64,000 bases of DNA, from NCBI GenBank assembly GCA_037042915.1, contig CM073200.1:1116001-1180000 (forward strand), in the 5' to 3' direction. The translations under genes were made by a program, and so were the position numbers. This document shows, in pieces, positions 22,972 through 38,101 of the stretch. Each line of letters starts with the position of its first letter. The first letter of the stretch is position 1. The stretch comes from Auricularia sp. M13 (Eukaryota > Basidiomycota > Agaricomycetes > Auriculariales > Auriculariaceae). A model generated the notes under the pieces. It ran no database searches, was not told the origin of the DNA, and saw only the letters and a list, made by a program, of their open reading frames with translations.

Positions 22972-23813
22972 TTAGTGCGTCTTCCGGGCAGGAAATCTGA
23001 GCAGATCCAACGCCCTGTGCACAGCGTCAATAAGTTGTGTGGCAACGATATATTTGCATGCCTCTCCATCCGGTGTGACCTGTGGTGTAGGTTGAAGGGC
23101 AATTTGAGCCCCTCCTGTGATAGCCTGATCAGTCGGCAGCGATGGTCCAGCCTCACTCTGGTCCAGGGATGGGAGTGGCAGCGAACCGCATGGGACATGC
23201 GCGACCGGCGACTGGGGCTATGCACTTCTTGAGCTCGAGGGTAGGAGCATGTGAATCGTAAGAGACTGACCTGCGGTAGACGGTACAGGCGTGCAAGCTC
23301 GGGCTATAGCGGATGAGAGGATGAGCATCTTAGACGGAGGGAAGCCAAGTCAACTGACCACAAGTACATTGCCGTGCCCAGCGCGAATGGTCTTGGTCCA
23401 TGAAACAGTAGGAAAGGACTGCATAATGAATGGTGAGGGCCGAACGCCGGTGGCGGAGCAGTCCTTGATATATGCAAGCCAGAGAATGGCGTCGTCCAAG
23501 ACGACCGACGGATATGAATTCATAATCGCAGCCAGGGCGTGATCGTCGTCACCGTCGCGGCTAAGATCAAGAATGTGCTTGGCAAATGAACCGGGCACAC
23601 GGCAGTTGCGACCGTCGGGGCTGTCGGGGTGAAGTATACTATCTCCTTCTGAGACACTGGTACTCTAAGGTTGCGTTATTTTGTGAATATGTTAATTAGA
23701 CGAGAAACGCACAACGCCAGGTTCCAAAAGCATTTCATCACCATCGCAGTCGTGCTGCGTGGTGTGAGGATCGTCGGGGGAGGCAGGAGCAACAAGAGCA
23801 ATCTCACCTGCAT
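22972..23813 (-). CDS. Uncharacterised protein, family I copy 1 (5 exons)
   Basis: Exons 23808-23813, 23713-23754, 23368-23664, 23271-23303 and 22972-23217 read in phase to a 207-residue product ending at TAA. The first exon is only ATGCAG, followed by GTGAGA. A longer start (MLRSLLSLEHIAH, upstream and in the same frame) is possible. The main exon carries FAKHILDLSRDGDDDHALAA and DDAILWLAYIKD ... PFIMQSF ... SW, and the last exon a short helix, KYIVATQLIDAVHRALDLL. The family is not a named one. The gene at 25918-26771 has the same core (HAVRFIID, DAWLWLEYIKG, FIMDLF, SW) and also a tiny ATG-bearing first exon. The two genes face away from each other across a minisatellite and the 25142-25704 gene. 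Confidence 0.72.
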
Positions 23814-23999
23814 TGAGTGAGAGGATATCATCATAGCTGCGATGGGGCGAATGCAGTACGAGTGGGCGATGTGTTCGAGAGATAGCAGACTACGCAGCAT
23901 GGGGTTTTTAAACGTCCACAAGCTGAGGAACTCTGAGAGGCGTCGCATGGGACCAAAATGCAGAGGGATCAAGGTGGGAAAGATGGTGGCCGACGTCGC

Positions 24000-24390
24000 A
24001 GAGGCGGCGGCCGCCAGCAAAGTCGAATGAGTTAGACTGAGGCAGGACAAAGGCGAGGAGCGACGGCGGATGACGGCGGCGAGGCGGCGGCCGTCAGCAA
24101 AGTCGAATGGGTTAGATTGAGGCAGGGCAAAGGCGAGGAGCGACGGCGGATGACGGCGGCGAGGCGGCGGCCGTCGACAAAGTCGAATGGGTTAGATTGA
24201 GGCAGGACAAAGGCGAGGAGCGACGGCGGATGACGGCGGCGAGGCGGCGGCCGTCGGCAAAGTCGAATGGGTTAGATTGAGGCAGGACAAAGGCGAGGAG
24301 CGACGGCGGATGACGGCGGCGAGGCGGCAGCCGTCAGCAAAAGTCGAATGGGTTAGATTGAGGCAGGACAAAGACAGCGAGCGACGGCTG
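24000..24390. repeat. 80 bp minisatellite, about 5 copies
   Basis: The word AGTCGAATGGGTTAGATTGA recurs at 24021, 24101, 24181, 24261 and 24342, a period of 80 (once 81). The unit contains GAGGCGGCGGCCGTC and GAGCGACGGCGGATGACGGC. Diverged, shorter copies of the same words (GACGGCGCCAAGA, GGGGAGCGACGGCG) continue to about 24930. There are no unique spacers, so this is not CRISPR. Confidence 0.92.
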
Positions 24391-26771: not shown

Positions 26772-27987
26772 TCCATACATAGCACGTTCAGAGATGACCT
26801 TTGGAACGTCGTCACCTGGTGCACCATAGCCTTAAGCTTCACCCGAGGGCTCTTCGCCGTGGCATCCTCCAGGAGGGCACTCGAACCTTTGCTCCTTGTC
26901 AGGTATCTCACCGAGGTCATGGTGGTGGGGGCGTGTACCACAGCTGCATGATCTCCCGTCTCATAGGACCAGGTATCGAATCAGATTGAATGCAAGCACG
27001 TTTGCGATCATGGAAGCGTTTCGCCTGTTCGACGAGGGCTTAACTTTCCACCGGCTGAGAATGCACGGTCGCTGCTCATACGCATCAAAGCGTCTTCTTG
27101 TGGAGAATTCGTCTTTCAGGATAGTGCAAACAAGGGGACCCAGCCGCCAAAATCTGGAGCATCAGGTTAGGATGGATGGGTCGGCCGATCTCACGCTTCA
27201 GAGGTACCCCGGCCGATTTGGCTCCGGAGAGCGTTTTAACAGCCCATTCGCACTTCAAGTTGACTGAGCTTGCACAGAGTGATCTACAGTATTTGGGCTC
27301 TTCTGAGCCCTCTTCATGGCCACAGGGGGACCGTTCCGGTACAATTCGGATGCATATTGTCTGCTGACATAATGCGTTACACTTCCGAGATTGGACCGTC
27401 GAGCGATATATGTACATGAAGTCTCATACTCCTTCCCAGTGTATAGCCGCGCTGGGCCTTGTTTGTCGTTATGTACACAAGGAAACCGGCCGGAGGTGTC
27501 ATATACACTGGTGACAAATGTTATTGCGACCGAGTACATCCGCTCCGTGGGCTGAGTCAGCGAGCCAGAACACGCTCACCAGGCTCTGTGTTGCCCGTTG
27601 TCGCCTCCGCCGTGGCACCCGTTGCTCTCAGTAGTCCTCTAAATACATCAGTGGGATGTCCCGCTTCGGTTTGAGGCTCAGAATTGCCTTGTACGCCCGA
27701 TTCGGACGAGTGCGACAATGCTGCAGCTGCATCAGCCTGCATGATCTCGAGCCTCGCAACTGCGAATAAAGTCTCCAATGCATAAAGTGGTCACATTTCT
27801 AAGTGCTGGGAAACTTATTTACGCTCTTATTGCCTGTTCTCGAGTCCCTGCAGTAGTAAGCGTCTATTTTAGGCGCGGCACAAAAGTCGCCAGGGTTTCC
27901 TTGTGCACACGACAAACAACCGTCGGTGCGTATTCGTAGACCAATGGGAAGGAGTATGATGAAGTCTGCGATGCTGAATAACTATCT
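26772..27987. other. Intergenic with a dispersed repeat and a possible small exon
   Basis: It holds one copy of a dispersed repeat (27132-27273). The minus-strand frame 27557-27778 (ADAAAALSHSSESG) ends near a GTGAGC donor and could be an exon of an unrecognised gene, but I cannot complete a model. Confidence 0.4.
27132..27273 (+). repeat. Dispersed repeat, copy 1
   Basis: It shares long stretches with 56717-56860, including CAAGGGGACCCAGCCG, CATCAGGTTAGGATGGATGG and AATTTGGCTCCGGAGAG (GATTTGG in this copy). A weaker third copy is at 62862-62945. Confidence 0.8.
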
Positions 27988-30496
27988 TCATACATAGTAC
28001 TCGGCCAACTCCAGCTCGCGGAGAAGGCGCGAGCGGAAAGCATCGTTGCTACTGCCGCTGGTGCTTAACAACAGCTTGCGGATTTCGCTGTGCTGGGAGT
28101 CGACGCGCTGCTTGATGCAGCGACGGCGCGGGCGCTGTATGCATCCTCGACCATGCTCTCCAGCTAGGAGATCCTCTGCTCGTACTGGCGGCGCATCTTG
28201 TTCATCGCGTTCTGGTGGTCGCCATCGCCCGCGATACTGGCGAGCTCCGACTCGTAGGCCTCCTTGGCGAGAATGGCGGCGGAGAGCTGCTGCTTCAAGT
28301 CGTTCATCTGCGCAGCGACGTTCTTCGCCTCGGCCTCCATGCGGCGTACCTGGCCCGCAACGGATTCGGGGATCTTGCGCTCCTTATCGATCTCGGCGCG
28401 CAGCTGGAACGCCTTTTCCTCGGCGGTACGAATCTGCTTGTTCTTCGCGTAGTTGAGCGACCGTTCCTTCTCGGCCTCGCGCACAGAATCTTCCGGGTCT
28501 ATGAGGAGGCGCACCTTGACCTGCTGCAAGGAGCGTAGTTGCGACTGAACAGCGCGGAGTTCGGCCCGGATATCGAGTAACTGTGGGTCGTCAGCCGCTT
28601 GGCCTCCTCGAGGATGTGGACGTGTTCGACGATGGTCTTGTCCTGCTTGGAACGCAGGTTCTGGAGGTCCATTCACGGTGAGCAAGTTGTCCTGCGGCTT
28701 ATTGAGCTCGCACTCGAGCTTAACTTGCCGGTCCTTGAGCTTGGCGAGCTCTGAGCGGTTCTGTGTGGCCGACTTGTCAAGCTGGATACGCTTGGTTCGC
28801 TCGTCCTCCGGCTCCTTGCGCGTCGAGTCCACCTGGCGGACCCACGAGGTCTTTTTCGCGCTCGACCTGGAGTTAACGCGTCCTCAACGTCTTGGTGATT
28901 CGTAAGCGCGGCCGCGAGGTGTCGCTCAGAAGCCTTCATAAACAATGAGTTAAATGACGAAGAATACGAGGGACCGATGCATACCTCCCTCGCCTTGACG
29001 GCCTTTGTCAATTGACTGTCGAGGTCGACTTGCACAGAGTGTGGAGCTCAGACTTGGCCGCCCGACGTGTCTTCTCAGCATTCGCGACCTGCGCCTCGGC
29101 GTCCTTCGCCTTCTTCCCGACGCCTTCAGCTTTGCGCGTGAGCAAATCACGGCCCTGCTGCAGCTCATCGCGCTCGCGCTGCACCGTGCACAGCGTCGTC
29201 TGCGCCTCGCCAGCAGCCTTGCGCGACTCCGCGAGCTCCTCCGCACGTCGGCCAGCTCGATCTCGCGTGAGCGCTCCACCTCGCTGCGCTTGGTGTCTTC
29301 GCTCGTCTTCGCATCCATCGCGGCACGCAACTTGTCGGGTTCGGCCACCACGCACTCGCGGTCATCCTTCTTGGCCGCGAGCTCTACGGACAACGTCTTG
29401 CCGGTGGACTGTAGCTACTTGCATGAGTGCGACGTCGCGCTCCCGGCGCATCGAGGCAACTTTAGCGGCCAACCGTACAGAATCGGCCTCCTTGCGCTGG
29501 ATCATGCGGCATCCTCGGTCGCGGTGCGCGTGAGTTCGGCCAACTCCTTCTTGGCTTGGCGCGCTTCCTTCTCCTCTGCGTCGACTTTGGAGCGTCCAAG
29601 ATCCCTGTTAATATAGCGCGTGAATACTCGTGGTGGGGGGAAAGCGAGTGAAGCTCACCGTACCTCGTCGTGACTTCAGCGACGAGTTTGGCGTCCAGCT
29701 CCGCAACAGTCGCGTCCATAAGCTCCTTAAATCGGGCCTTATCCTCCTCAAGCTCAGCCAACGCCTGCTTGAGTTCCTCCAGTCGGCGGATAGCGCATTG
29801 ACATCGGTTTGAAGGGCAACGACCCGCTCATCCGCCCAGGGCAGCCTTCAGCGCCATATACTGCTCGGTGGTAGTCGCAAGCTGCGCCTGGACGCGCTCG
29901 AGCTGTTCATCGACGGTGCCCAGGCCCGCCGGGAGCGCGAGCACATCCTCCTCGAGCTCGGCCTGGCGCCGCGCCGAGCGCTCCAGCAGCGCCTCGCCGT
30001 CGACACTGCGCAGCCGCTCGGCGTCCAGTGCCTCCTCAACGCGCCGCTTATCCGCCTCGAGCTCCATCTTCAGCGTCTCGAGCGCCAGCCGCTCCTTCGC
30101 GTCACGTTCCGCGCACTCCTTGGCGATCTCCAGCTCAACGCTCTTACGGCGCAGCTCCTCATCGTTCCGCGTCACAGCCAGCAACGGACGCACCTACAAA
30201 CCAAGCAGTCCGTCAGCATTCATTCTCTTAAGAAGACTGTAAACAGACTTGGTATACAACTGCCACCACGGCCACTCCTTGAGCGCGCCATAAGGCCTCG
30301 CATTCTCCTGGATGCGGCTCGCCACAACCGCACGGCCAAGGATCTTCTTGATCTGGCAGCGAGCACCCCACTTGCGCGCCACAGGCTGGAATCGGCCAAA
30401 GATATCGTACAGTAGCCCATCGCGGCGCTCCTCGAGCTCGGCGAGCGCACCACCCTTGAAGAACGCCGGGGTCGTGCCAATGCGGAAATGCGCCTG

Positions 30497-30647
30497 GTCG
30501 AGCTGCGGCGCAACGGTGTTCTCGAGGGCAGTCGTATCGCGCATCTCGGCTACTCTAACCGCCTACCGTTCGTGCCCGGCGTGCTCCCACCCGGATATAT
30601 GGATAGACGCAAAGCCGCTGCGAGGATGCACGCCGCGCTCGAGCTGG
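30497..30647 (+). other. Inverted segment inside the myosin pseudogene
   Basis: Here the plus strand, not the minus, encodes the myosin loop NGVLEGSRIAHLGYSNRLPF and GYMDRRKAAARMHAALEL. The flanking minus-strand frames stop and resume the motor exactly around it (DFSLVQDQL before, DQAHFRIGT after). The ends carry short inverted words (TCGAGCTGCGGCG and CGCCGCGCTCGA), a plausible substrate for the inversion. Confidence 0.85.
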
Positions 30648-32127
30648 TCCTGCACGAGCGAGAAGTCGACGCGCCTGGCGCGGCGGAACGTATTGGGCAC
30701 GATACAGCGCACGAAATACGGCTGCGTCGCGCCATGAGGCTCGTGAGCTGCTCCTTATGGCCCTGCGTGACGGTGCAGAACGCGCCCTTCTTAACGACCA
30801 CACCGCCGACGCGCTTCGCACCGTCTCCCTCCGCGAACAGCTGCGCGACGAAGTTCTCGGACGACGCGCCCAGGATGCGCGCTAGGTTGTCGTTGTCGTT
30901 CAGCGGGTCCTTGTTCTTCGCGAGCCAGCCATCCGTGCTATATTCTACGCGGCCCGCGTAGTGCTACACCACGAAGCCCTGCGCGAGGCGCGCCGACACG
31001 TACTTTCTCGCACCCGGGTGGTCGCGCGTGCAGCTTGGCAGTGAACGTCGCGTCCGTCGCCTTGGGCACGATGCACTCCTCGTCCAAGCAACTCAGGATG
31101 CCCCGGCGCGCGCCGGAATGAGTCGATGGTGGGCAGCAGGTTCGAGCCCGAAGTTGACGGACAACCACTCGATGCCCTCACGTGCACACTCCTCCTGCTG
31201 AAGCACAAATATGTGGTGGTTGAAGTACTGCTGCAGGCGCTCGTTCGCGTAGTTGATGCACAGCTGTTCAAACCCGTTCTCGGTGAAGACGTTGAAACCG
31301 GGGATGTCGAGCACGCCGAACGTCTTCTCGTACAGGGTCTTGCACAGCACGCCCAACTTGTCACGCGCCTGTTGCGCCGTCCGCGCCTGCGTCACCGGCC
31401 AGCACCCACGGGCTAAGCACCGCTCGCCCAATGTTTGCCGTGCTCACGCCGAGCAGATGGCACGCCTTCTCCGCCTGCGCCGGCTCCGCGATCCGCACCG
31501 TCTCGCCCGACCGGTCGCTCATGACTGCGATATTGCCGATGTGCAGATTCGCCGCGAGCACGCAAAACAAGTCGAACTGCTCCTCCTGCGAGAACCCGAC
31601 AACGTCCAGCGCGGTCTGAAGCAACCGCCACTCCTCGCAGTCATCGACGCCGTCGATCATCAGCAGCGCGTCCTCGTTTGCGCTGCCCTCCAGCAGCTGG
31701 TAGAACGCGTGGGATGACCTCTCGTTCTCCGTCCGTGCCACCACCTGGCTCTTCTCCAGCAGGTATTAGTCGATGTTGGCGCCCGCGATGCTCCCCTCGC
31801 CGGCGAACGTGATGCGCACGAACTTGCCGAATCGCGACGGGTCGTTGTTGCGCTGCGTCTGCGCGTCGCTGAACGCCTTCAAGATCGGGTTCGCTTGCAA
31901 TATCTGCCGCCCGAGCAGGACCAGTTTGACTGGGCCGCCGTCGTCGTCGTCACGCCTACAGGCTCGGATTGCGGAACGACGAGCTGCGAGGCAGACCCTG
32001 CGTAGGTAGGACGGCGGTCGTCGAGCCTGCGCCAGAATGCGACCCGGCCAGTGTGGCGCCTGTCGCGATGGCAGCCAGGTGTTAAAAGACCTTGGTGTTA
32101 TCCGTCTTGCCTGCGCCAGAATCGCCG

Positions 32128-34003
32128 CTGCAAAATTTGAGTCAGCAAATGAAAGAGCCAAAGGAATAATGAGGCAGAGTAAGGCCACGCTGGGACAGAG
32201 CCAAGACTCGTGCGTAGTGGCGGGCAGCGAGGTCCTGCGGGTCGTGCATCCGACGCGCGCTGCATGACAACGAGCTCGATAGAAAGAAATCGGACAGAAG
32301 ACGAGGGCGCGTGCGAGCTCTTTCCGGAGTGCCTCTGCTGAGCTCGTGCGCGAGCGTGAAATGCTTTTTAGCTGTAGAAACGCGGCGCAAGCCGTAGGCG
32401 GCAGGCCTGCCAATTTCCACCGCTCCGCGCGAGCGCGGAGCGTGCACCACGTCACCAAAAACTGCGCGAGGGGGCGGCAGCCGCTAAGGCTGCGTGCAAA
32501 CAGCGGTGACCGCGCATAGCAAGTTCACGGCGGGTGGGACGAAGCCGGGTACGGAGTGCCGGGCAGGGGTGGTCCGAGCAAGAACGCAGCGGGCCATGAA
32601 AAGGAAAATAAGTACCGGGAATAGCGAGTTGGTATCGGGAATGGCAGCCTGGGAGCGCCGTGCGCAGCCCCTGGCAGTCGTTCGCGCAGGTGGGAGCCCG
32701 GGCGCGGGAACCGTAGCCCGCACCGCTAGACGACGAGCAACAGGATCCGCGCGGACGCTGACGAGCGCGCGCGGTGAAGGAGATGAAAAGGTACGCCGAA
32801 CAGAGTGCACGCGGGCGCGATTCAGAGCGTGAGCAAGCTGCTGGACGGCGAGGTCGGCAGTTGTCAAGGACGAACGCAACATACGCGGCAAGCTCACGAC
32901 GGGACGGAAAGCGCAGGATGAATGTCCATGGTGTGACTCGAACTCGGGCAAAGACGGCCTTCGCTCGCCAATCTGCTCTGGAGCATGTGGATTCCTTGTC
33001 ATCCCCACAAAAGGAGCATGTCACGGCGCGTTATGTAGGTGACCTGCCATTCCCTCCTGGACCAAAGCCACAAGGCGCGCGCGCCGACTGCGCAGCACAG
33101 TATGAAGCGCGCTCGCCCGTCGAAGTCCGAGCCAGTGTGACGTGCTGGATGAACGACCTGGGATGCCGAGGGGTGGAAAGCACAAATGAAGCAAAGGAAA
33201 ATAGCGAAAGAAAGGGAAGAAGGGAAAGATGAAAAGTAAGAAGTCTTAAATGCGAAAGAAGGCTTGCTGGGTCACATCATTGCTACGCGCGAGCCCGATG
33301 TCGGGACATTGAGGGCCACTGCTGAACAGGGCATCTTCGCGGACAGCGCCGCCGCTCCAGACGGTAGCTCGTGCATATGCGAGCGTGTGAAGGCGCTGAC
33401 CGTGGTCTGCGACGATGGGCTGCGGGCTAGTGTGGCCGCTCAGACGGCGGCGCGCTTTGCGGCAGACGGTAACAATCATTGCCGTAGGCATAGCAGTCTG
33501 CATCTGCGCAACGCAGAGCGCACGCAAGCTGAGTTCAAATTGGTTGCGCCCGGCTGGCAAACGCAGAGCTCAACCGCGCGAAGACAGAATGTAGCGCGCT
33601 ACCGCAACGTAGGACGCTGCTGTGGCGTGTGAAAGGCAAACGAAATGCGCGGAGCCGGAACCGCAAGGCGCCCTGCGCAGCCGGCAGCGGCGCCGGTCGC
33701 CTTGCCCCCCGGCAGCGTTTGAGAACGCGAGCACGCGGTCGCCAGCACACGCCGGCCACGTGAAGAGCGGGAAGACAGGCAGCAACCGCGGATATGTGAC
33801 ACCCACGCCGTGATTAGAACCCGCGCGCTTGGGATGGAGGGTGGACGGACGTCGTCGACAACCGTCACGACTCGACGTCGCGAGTCCATAACAACGTGCA
33901 GATGGGCACTGGCCGACGACGCTCTCGACGGAATACGAGCCCGCGCGCTTGGAAGGGAAGGGAAGGAAGGGTACTAGGGAAGAGCAGACGGGATTATACG
34001 TAC
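32128..34003 (-). other. Enlarged intron in the myosin copy
   Basis: Donor GTACGT (34003) and acceptor TTTTGCAG (32128) join NQSVLIT to GDSGAGKT in perfect phase, a common intron site in fungal myosins. At 1,876 bp it is over thirty times longer than other introns in the window. It is GC-rich, with no gene or inverted-repeat element that I could define. Short duplicates such as CCCGCGCGCTTGG (33823 and 33944) are present. Confidence 0.7.
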
Positions 34004-34641
34004 GTGATAAGGACGGACTGGTTCTCGCGCTCCCATGTTGACCCACGCGCCCTGGCCAATGGCAAAGATATGGAGCGGGTTCTCGTCTCTTCTGCGCGCA
34101 CGATACTGGGCCACGCTCTTGTCCGAAGAGAGGTTCGGTAACCGCTTGTACGGGTTTATCGTGACCAGGAACAAGCCCGAACGTCTGCAGCGGCGGTCAG
34201 CTCAGAGAGCGCATACAGGGCGGTATAACGGACATAAATGGCGTCTGAGCCGTAGAGCAGACGCAGGTTGTGGACGACAGAGGCCTCGTTGAGCAAGGTC
34301 AGGTCGGTCATGTCGACCCGGTCGAACTTGGGCGGGTTCATCCAAGTTGCTCAGCTCGTCCAGCGACACCCGCCGTATCTGCAGCGGGCGTTACCAATCA
34401 GCAGCAGTGCATACATTGGGAACGACGGACCTGTTGGCAGCAATGACGATGTCAACCCTGCTCGTCGTCCTCCTTGGTGACCCAGCCAGCCAGATAGCCC
34501 TCACGCTCGTCCGCCGCGCTCGTCCGGCATTAACACCCATTTCTTCTCGTTGAATTCGGCATACAGCACCACGTCGCGTGCGTTGTCCGTGCCTATCGAC
34601 AGCCACGGCAGCGCCATCCTTCGGTTGGGTAGTAGTAGTAC

Positions 34642-35667
34642 TGCTGTTTGCAGAACGGAAGGCGCCGACGGAAATCGGCGATTTTCCGTGTGATTTCGTC
34701 GCATTCGCCATTCCTCGCTCAATCCGATTCCCCTTCGGCTGAAACTTTAGGAATGCATTTGTTGTTATAATTACAGGCTATTCCGCTCGAAAGACCGAGA
34801 GGAGAAGGTGCCGAATAGCCGCAGGACCGCTAATCCAGTCTGAGCCATTCTCCTCCTCGGTCTGAGGTGCATTGACGGCCGACAGTATTATGTGCTGCCT
34901 ACCAGCGTCTTGTGCAAGGTAATGGCACAGTAAGGCGCACTTAGCGCTAGAAAACCGCGCAAAAATGCGCTCCTTTGTTGCAGACGGCCAAGCTAGAATT
35001 GTGGCTTAACTATTTTGAGCACCACAGACTATGCACGGACCAGAGGAGGAAGTAACCGACTCAGAGAGTGGGCTAAATCTATTTGAACAAGTATCTGTCG
35101 ACGTGAAGCAGAGAAACAGTGTGCCGGGGATGGATTACTTTGCCAATCCCTGGAGCAGACAAGTCTCATTATCTGCCTGTCTTCGTCATGAGGCAGTGCA
35201 CAAATGCTCTGATAATTTCTTGTTACTGTTTGTGAACTTTTACCAGGGAGAAATGTTGCCTAGTATCACCGGATGTCGCGCTATGGTGTCATTCAGTTCT
35301 CAATGCAGGACCAAACCGGGTTCTGCGGCAAGAAGGAGCGCATTTTTGCGCAGTTTTCTAGCGCTAAGTGCGCCTTACTGTGCCATTACCTTGCACAAGA
35401 CGCTGGTAGGCAGCACATAATACTGTCGGCCGTCAATGCACCTCAGACCGAGGAGGAGAATGGCTCAGACTGGATTAGCGGTCCTGCGGCTATTCGGCAC
35501 CTTCTCCTCTCGGTCTTTCGAGCGGAATAGCCTCTAATTACAACAAAAAATGCATTCCTAAAGTTTCAGCCGAAGGGGAATCGGATTGAGCGAGGAATGG
35601 CGAATGCGACGAAATCATACGGAAAATCGCCGATTTCCGTCGGCGCCTTCCGTTCTGCAAACAGCAG
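34642..35667. mobile_element. Long-inverted-repeat, Mutator-like non-autonomous element
   Basis: The two arms, about 335 bp each (34642-34977 and 35330-35667), are near-identical reverse complements beginning CTGCTGTTTGCAGAACGG. A unique centre of about 350 bp separates them. Both sides carry TAGTAGTA (34634-34641 and 35668-35675), an 8 bp duplication, though low in complexity. Long arms with 8-9 bp duplications fit Mutator-like elements. No transposase is present. The left end lies 25 bp upstream of the myosin ATG. Confidence 0.82.
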
Positions 35668-35720
35668 TAGTAGTATACAGGAGTTGCAGGGCCTACAAAG
35701 ACCTCTCCCGCTTCGGCATA

Positions 35721-37642: not shown

Positions 37643-38101
37643 CAAGGGGCCGGCCGGATAAGGATTTACCATTTAGGGTCCCCCAGTTGGGTCGTGGGAA
37701 ACTTTGGGCGGCTATCAGCTCGGCACAAGGACGGCGGCGTCTGCAGCTTCAGCGCATCGTCGTCTCGCGGAGACAGGTCCTGAAAACTCAAGTTACTGGG
37801 AAATGATGACTATATGGTGTTATTACTCTTATTTTTATAGCTTTCTGAACTTGATCCCAGAGGCGGGACGGCTGCACGAACCACTGAAAAAGGCAGAATC
37901 TCAATGAGCTAGCACCCGCAGGTGATCTGCAGATGATTTATATTTGCAGACAGCCGTTTCATTGAAGCAGGGAAGTCTTGAGGCAGCGTACAGAGGCTCG
38001 GAGTGCTCGCCATTGCAGTGCCAAGCTGATAGCCGCCCAAAGTTTCCCACGACCCAACTGGGGGACCCTAAACAGGAAATCCTTATCCGGCCGGCCCCTT
38101 G
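37643..38101. mobile_element. hAT-type non-autonomous element (459 bp)
   Basis: Inverted arms of about 84 bp begin CAAGGGGCCGGCCGGATAAG and end on the other side with CTTATCCGGCCGGCCCCTTG; CAAGG fits YARNG. The 8 bp target duplication GCCTTTGT is exact at 37635-37642 and 38102-38109. There is no transposase frame. Confidence 0.92.

Follow-up and report, generated by a model that had tools for sequence, protein, structure and literature searches.

Our analysis of a 64,000-nucleotide stretch of the genome of the fungus Auricularia sp. M13 (assembly GCA_037042915.1) points to a short segment that has been turned round within a degenerate myosin II heavy-chain gene. The window, by which we mean the whole stretch that was analysed, corresponds to positions 1116001-1180000 of contig C8 (CM073200.1) in an assembly of 52.1 Mb and 14 contigs. 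On the sequence at hand we consider it likely that some 145 to 175 bp in the motor region of this dead copy were inverted in place at a late stage. The comparison rests on a related myosin II gene on contig C2 of the same genome. The features on which the argument turns are, in window coordinates:

30501..30645, plus strand: inverted block, 145 bp including AGCT at each end, encoding about LRRNGVLEGSRIAHLGYSNRLPFVPGVLPPGYMDRRKAAARMHAALEL
30501..30504, no strand: AGCT, left copy of the palindromic inverted microhomology, range of the breakpoint tie and a 4-nt ambiguity in both the C2 gene and the product
30642..30645, no strand: AGCT, right copy of the inverted microhomology, range of the breakpoint tie and the same 4-nt ambiguity in the C2 gene and the product
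30570..30573, plus strand: TCGT, site of a 30-bp in-frame deletion (10 codons) in the block, from the alignment to C2

Comparison of C2:2347001-2377000 with the window resulted in nine alignment blocks at E 1e-6 or better. The window copy lies on the minus strand in eight of them, and on the plus strand only in the ninth (window 30493-30645), the counterpart of which is C2:2360971-2361153; no further inverted block was found in the pseudogene among the nine at this threshold. An earlier reading made from the sequence only had placed the myosin on the minus strand everywhere except at this inversion, with flanking motor sequence that stops and resumes at the edges, and both claims are borne out. 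In gene direction the collinear flanks end at 30642 and resume at 30504, meeting the block on both sides, so that a block of opposite orientation stands between collinear flanks, as in a small in-place inversion. Re-flipping positions 30501-30645 raised the alignment score from 179 (as assembled) to 362. Aligned with its C2 counterpart, the segment itself reached a score of 96, compared with 23 for its reverse complement. Of 2270 other segments, drawn on both strands from 1135 positions 50 apart outside about 27800-35000, the best scored 25.

The same picture emerges at the protein level. The plus-strand frame 30416-30961 matched both the C2 paralogue protein (E 6.7e-17, 74% identity) and solved myosin II heads (best 4pd3, E 2.7e-5, query residues 15-77), and the plus-strand myosin match expected by the sequence-only reading at about 30500-30650 is thus present. 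The Pfam head model matched this frame weakly and under the cut-off (E 0.085); the stretch in question is a short one from which ten residues are missing. On the minus strand the Pfam match that reaches the edge (E 5e-5, under the curated cut-off) stops at about 30638, and the minus-strand frame beyond that edge (30194-30562) matched no Pfam family at E 0.1 or better. By the usual motif names, the flipped part comprises what we take to be the SH2-SH1 helices together with the converter's first half; the converter-proximal loop named in the sequence-only reading is included in the block, which is wider.

The C2 stretch used for comparison is one of seven myosin stretches retrieved from the genome, in which a Pfam myosin-head search gave 19 matches. 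With window positions 30100-31100 as DNA query, matches beyond the self-match were found on C2 only. The gene there is unannotated; its open frames extend from a likely Met at 2358057 to about 2366263, and the motor part forms a single 709-residue frame without stop, whose best match among solved myosin II heads is Myosin-10 (E 1.1e-209). The C2 copy is thereby predicted to be apparently intact, and it is the survival of such a second copy in the same genome that makes the inversion clear here. A protein search of the genome with the segment, which scores the best candidates only and could miss more distant copies, returned three places, namely the window, the C2 gene and a weak antisense overlap with the C2 gene (E 0.03).

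The edges of the block could be placed within 4 nt. Among 1600 breakpoint pairs tried (40 x 40), five tie for best, from (30501,30645) to (30505,30641), because the 4-nt palindrome AGCT stands at both edges; the block accordingly measures 145 bp (30501-30645), with a minimum of 137 bp (30505-30641). The extent first proposed, 30497-30647 or roughly 150 bp, holds in its location and is 4 and 2 bp too wide at its two ends. The short inverted words proposed for both ends come down to this one 4-nt word. Inverted repeats at the edges are therefore present in a weak form, without extension: a search for a longer imperfect ungapped repeat around AGCT gave no support for one (15 of 34 bases match). 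Nor do the edges, with the 4-nt word and its 15/34 extension, carry the inverted sites of recombinase length expected of invertible DNA of the recombinase-switch type. An inverted match of at least 4 nt occurs at 2.6% of 132981 gridded breakpoint pairs in the C2 gene (100-250 bp apart), and the match at the edges may hence be called suggestive, not decisive.

The divergence of the block indicates that it is local sequence turned round. With indels excluded, the block is 84.2% identical to C2. The flanks next to it reach 84.7% (upstream) and 84.8% (downstream), and block and flanks are therefore equally diverged (BLAST gives 70% for the block, since a 30-bp gap is counted). A recent reversed copy from C2 is rejected on the same grounds; it would be nearly identical to C2, yet its divergence equals that of the flanks. 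A search of the 52.1 Mb assembly for the un-inverted junction word, with up to 2 mismatches allowed, located it twice, in the C2 gene and (in inverted orientation) in the window block, and thus found no un-inverted version of the window copy. The counterpart of the block in the C2 gene measures about 175 bp; the block is shorter because the window copy has lost 30 bp in frame inside it. TCGT forms a direct repeat at both ends of the lost 30 bp in the C2 copy, and the ten residues concerned are present in the three solved myosins aligned. This deletion is the only indel in the block (second aligner, matching sequence cuts).

The sequence-only reading had also described the surrounding gene as a myosin II pseudogene, and the comparison with C2 supports this description. 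Three parts of the copy can be followed in addition to the block:

30646..32152, minus strand: motor-domain part upstream of the inversion in gene direction, with 3 in-frame stops and several frameshifts
28000..30500, minus strand: neck and partial coiled-coil tail downstream of the inversion, from the alignment to C2
33799..34621, minus strand: first exons (N-terminal motor) and intron sequence, from the alignment to C2

In the upstream motor part 8 of 14 indels are frameshifting in the MAFFT alignment and 11 of 16 with a second aligner, counts that depend on the aligner and include some pairs that partly compensate each other. The 3 stops come from the second aligner and are in frame with the codons of C2. 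At the 3' end the similarity to C2 stops at window 28000, while the C2 open frames continue for about 2.5 kb. Homology to myosin II and a lost reading frame thus occur together, as in a pseudogene of the heavy chain, and as read from these alignments the copy is dead on grounds other than the inversion, namely stops, frameshifting indels and 3' loss.

The substitutions bear on the timing of the flip. By C2 codon position (first, second, third) the block holds 3, 3 and 17 substitutions at 46, 47 and 46 sites (n=23; 3, 3 and 16 with another aligner), an excess at third positions with p about 7e-5. The upstream motor part has the same pattern (58, 23 and 121 at 499, 500 and 497 sites). Had the block been unconstrained since the split, so large a share at third positions (17 of 23 substitutions) would hardly be expected (p 0.002 to 0.016 for rate ratios of 0.7 to 0.5, a range that is assumed, part of the codon-position bias stemming from changes on the C2 side). 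From the bias within the block and the same pattern upstream, the inversion was therefore probably late and followed long evolution of the copy as a coding gene.

In the history that we propose, a second myosin II heavy-chain gene would have separated from what is today the C2 copy, evolved apart from it for long as a constrained coding gene and then become a pseudogene. Around or after its death, about 145-175 bp of the motor region would have been inverted in place. A break or stalled fork may have been repaired by annealing at AGCT, the segment being copied in reverse with a return at the second AGCT. Taken alone, such a microhomology-mediated route (break repair or replication) appears somewhat better than an even choice. 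Against the published yardsticks (yeast arms over 9 bp, human-chimpanzee repeats of 3-75 nt; see below) the break-repair route fits better, with end joining as the main rival. A further scenario seems improbable to us, namely that the inversion itself silenced a long-lived second myosin II gene that had once been functional, the internal 30 bp being lost in the same single microhomology-mediated event; if true, the locus would record the loss of a duplicate motor gene.

Several points weigh against the reading of a late, microhomology-mediated inversion in place. The inversion is known from the sequence of one assembly alone. The 4-nt AGCT match can arise by chance (the 2.6% given above), and of the gene's 1176 AGCT pairs 20% do as well as or better than the 15 matches in the 34 bases around each AGCT. 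Only 23 substitutions lie inside the block, and between inside and outside the codon-position counts show no significant difference (Fisher p 0.13), so that the inversion may have preceded or followed the other lesions. Over longer stretches a different aligner gave identities of 86.5% upstream, 83.5% inside, 84.3% for part of the tail and 76.0% for a 300-column downstream stretch, the far end of which aligns poorly and is split by the second aligner into several small indels. Finally, at 145 bp the block is 4.4 times as long as the longest of the published set of 17-33 nt, from which the mechanism is extrapolated.

Small inversions of this sort are already documented; this one is long and lies in former coding sequence. 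In one study, 59 definite human-chimpanzee microinversions of 17-33 nt are all flanked by inverted repeats of 3-75 nt, about half of them with arms of 4-8 nt (PMC8755829). Its authors have difficulty imagining two polymerase jumps within 3-4 nt and prefer microhomology-mediated break-induced replication for very short repeats. No protein change is reported for the set, 31 of the 59 cases lying in introns and one in a non-coding exon part. The Auricularia case resembles this set in being in place, with clean edges and flanking inverted repeats that may be very short, and differs from it in length (145 bp, about 175 in C2), in lying in former coding sequence and in a copy 16% diverged from its paralogue. 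For Saccharomyces cerevisiae coding genes Abraham and Hazkani-Covo 2021 (PMC8604942) describe ten spacer inversions by template switching, seen only with arms over 9 bp and covering 2-5 bp. There, too, coding sequence is reversed between inverted words; in the present case, by contrast, a long block in a dead gene lies between arms of 4 nt. Drosophila microinversions (PMC1779558) were likewise small inversions found by comparing two related sequences, in that case between species and here between paralogues within one genome. In titles and abstract openings our literature search found no small inversion in fungal genes or pseudogenes.

Among the alternatives, the strongest is that the same inversion arose by two double-strand breaks with reversed end joining or by a two-step template switch of the polymerase at a fork, which we hold to be possible, though the less probable route. 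The product would be identical, and a 4-nt match near chance with an unremarkable extension is what end joining would leave. Small terminal losses are common after end joining, whereas the alignment has no gap at either edge. Template switching has precedent in the ten inverted spacers of yeast coding genes (PMC8604942).

An artefact of assembly or library, with the segment in minus orientation in the organism, would be compatible with an orientation that is taken from a single assembly. It is nevertheless very unlikely. The block is 16% diverged from the C2 copy and is thus no misplaced C2 read, and the junction-word search located the un-inverted word (up to 2 mismatches, 52.1 Mb) in the C2 gene and the inverted window block only. 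A 4-nt word is moreover far too short to confuse an assembler.

Slightly less credible still is a templated insertion, in which a reversed copy of the C2 segment replaced the local one. The C2 gene would be an existing donor, yet identities of 84.2% inside and 84.7% and 84.8% in the flanks would date the copying back to the split, a date that the third-position bias within the block argues against, and both edges of the copy would need to coincide with those of the replaced stretch. A chance resemblance of an antisense frame to myosin could by no means explain the data and has a practically negligible probability: the plus-strand frame is open for 181 codons, and GC-rich coding DNA often has long open antisense frames, but the paralogue is matched in the DNA itself, with a score of 96 where the best of the 2270 controls reaches 25, and this refutes it.

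Thanks to the paralogue that the genome still holds, this small inversion in former coding sequence is well resolved, and methods meant to detect short inversions in pseudogenes could usefully be tested on it. The case also illustrates that what reads as antisense in a decayed gene may be sense sequence turned round. As a single event it leaves views of the mechanism unchanged.

The 5' end of the pseudogene contains additional sequence. About 2.5 kb of the window lies between alignment blocks that are only 6 bp apart on C2 (2358046, 2358053), just before the likely Met of the C2 gene; the outer block of this pair measures only 53 bp, which makes the reading as a 5' insertion less firm. Within the extra stretch lies one further feature:

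34633..35675, no strand: transposon-like element, terminal inverted repeats of 343 nt, next to the start-codon region of the pseudogene

The arms of this element are 98% complementary and enclose a centre of 357 nt. A copy with 98% identity occupies C2:2775524-2776554. At both ends the element also has about 100 nt of its arms in common with places on C10, C7 and C2. At its right edge (35663-35720) a piece of about 50 nt matches at least 12 other places in the genome at 87-98% identity; a second short repeat family therefore abuts the element at these positions. Another inverted-repeat pair, with 84-nt arms that are 95% complementary and 291 nt apart, is located at 37643-37726 and 38018-38101.

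In the intron region of the pseudogene, about 0.9 kb (32871-33799) stands against about 40 bp on C2 (2359014 to 2359054). Two related 44-nt repeats, 120 nt apart and 73% identical, occupy 33798-33841 and 33918-33961. In the C2 intron region the frames contain recurring phrases such as ERAGSNHG and RARGFESR, which might represent a short dispersed repeat. Elsewhere in the window, a degenerate tandem repeat is suggested by minus-strand frames at 23676-24333, where the phrases RRPPPRRRHPPSLLAF and SNPFDFADGRRLAAV recur.
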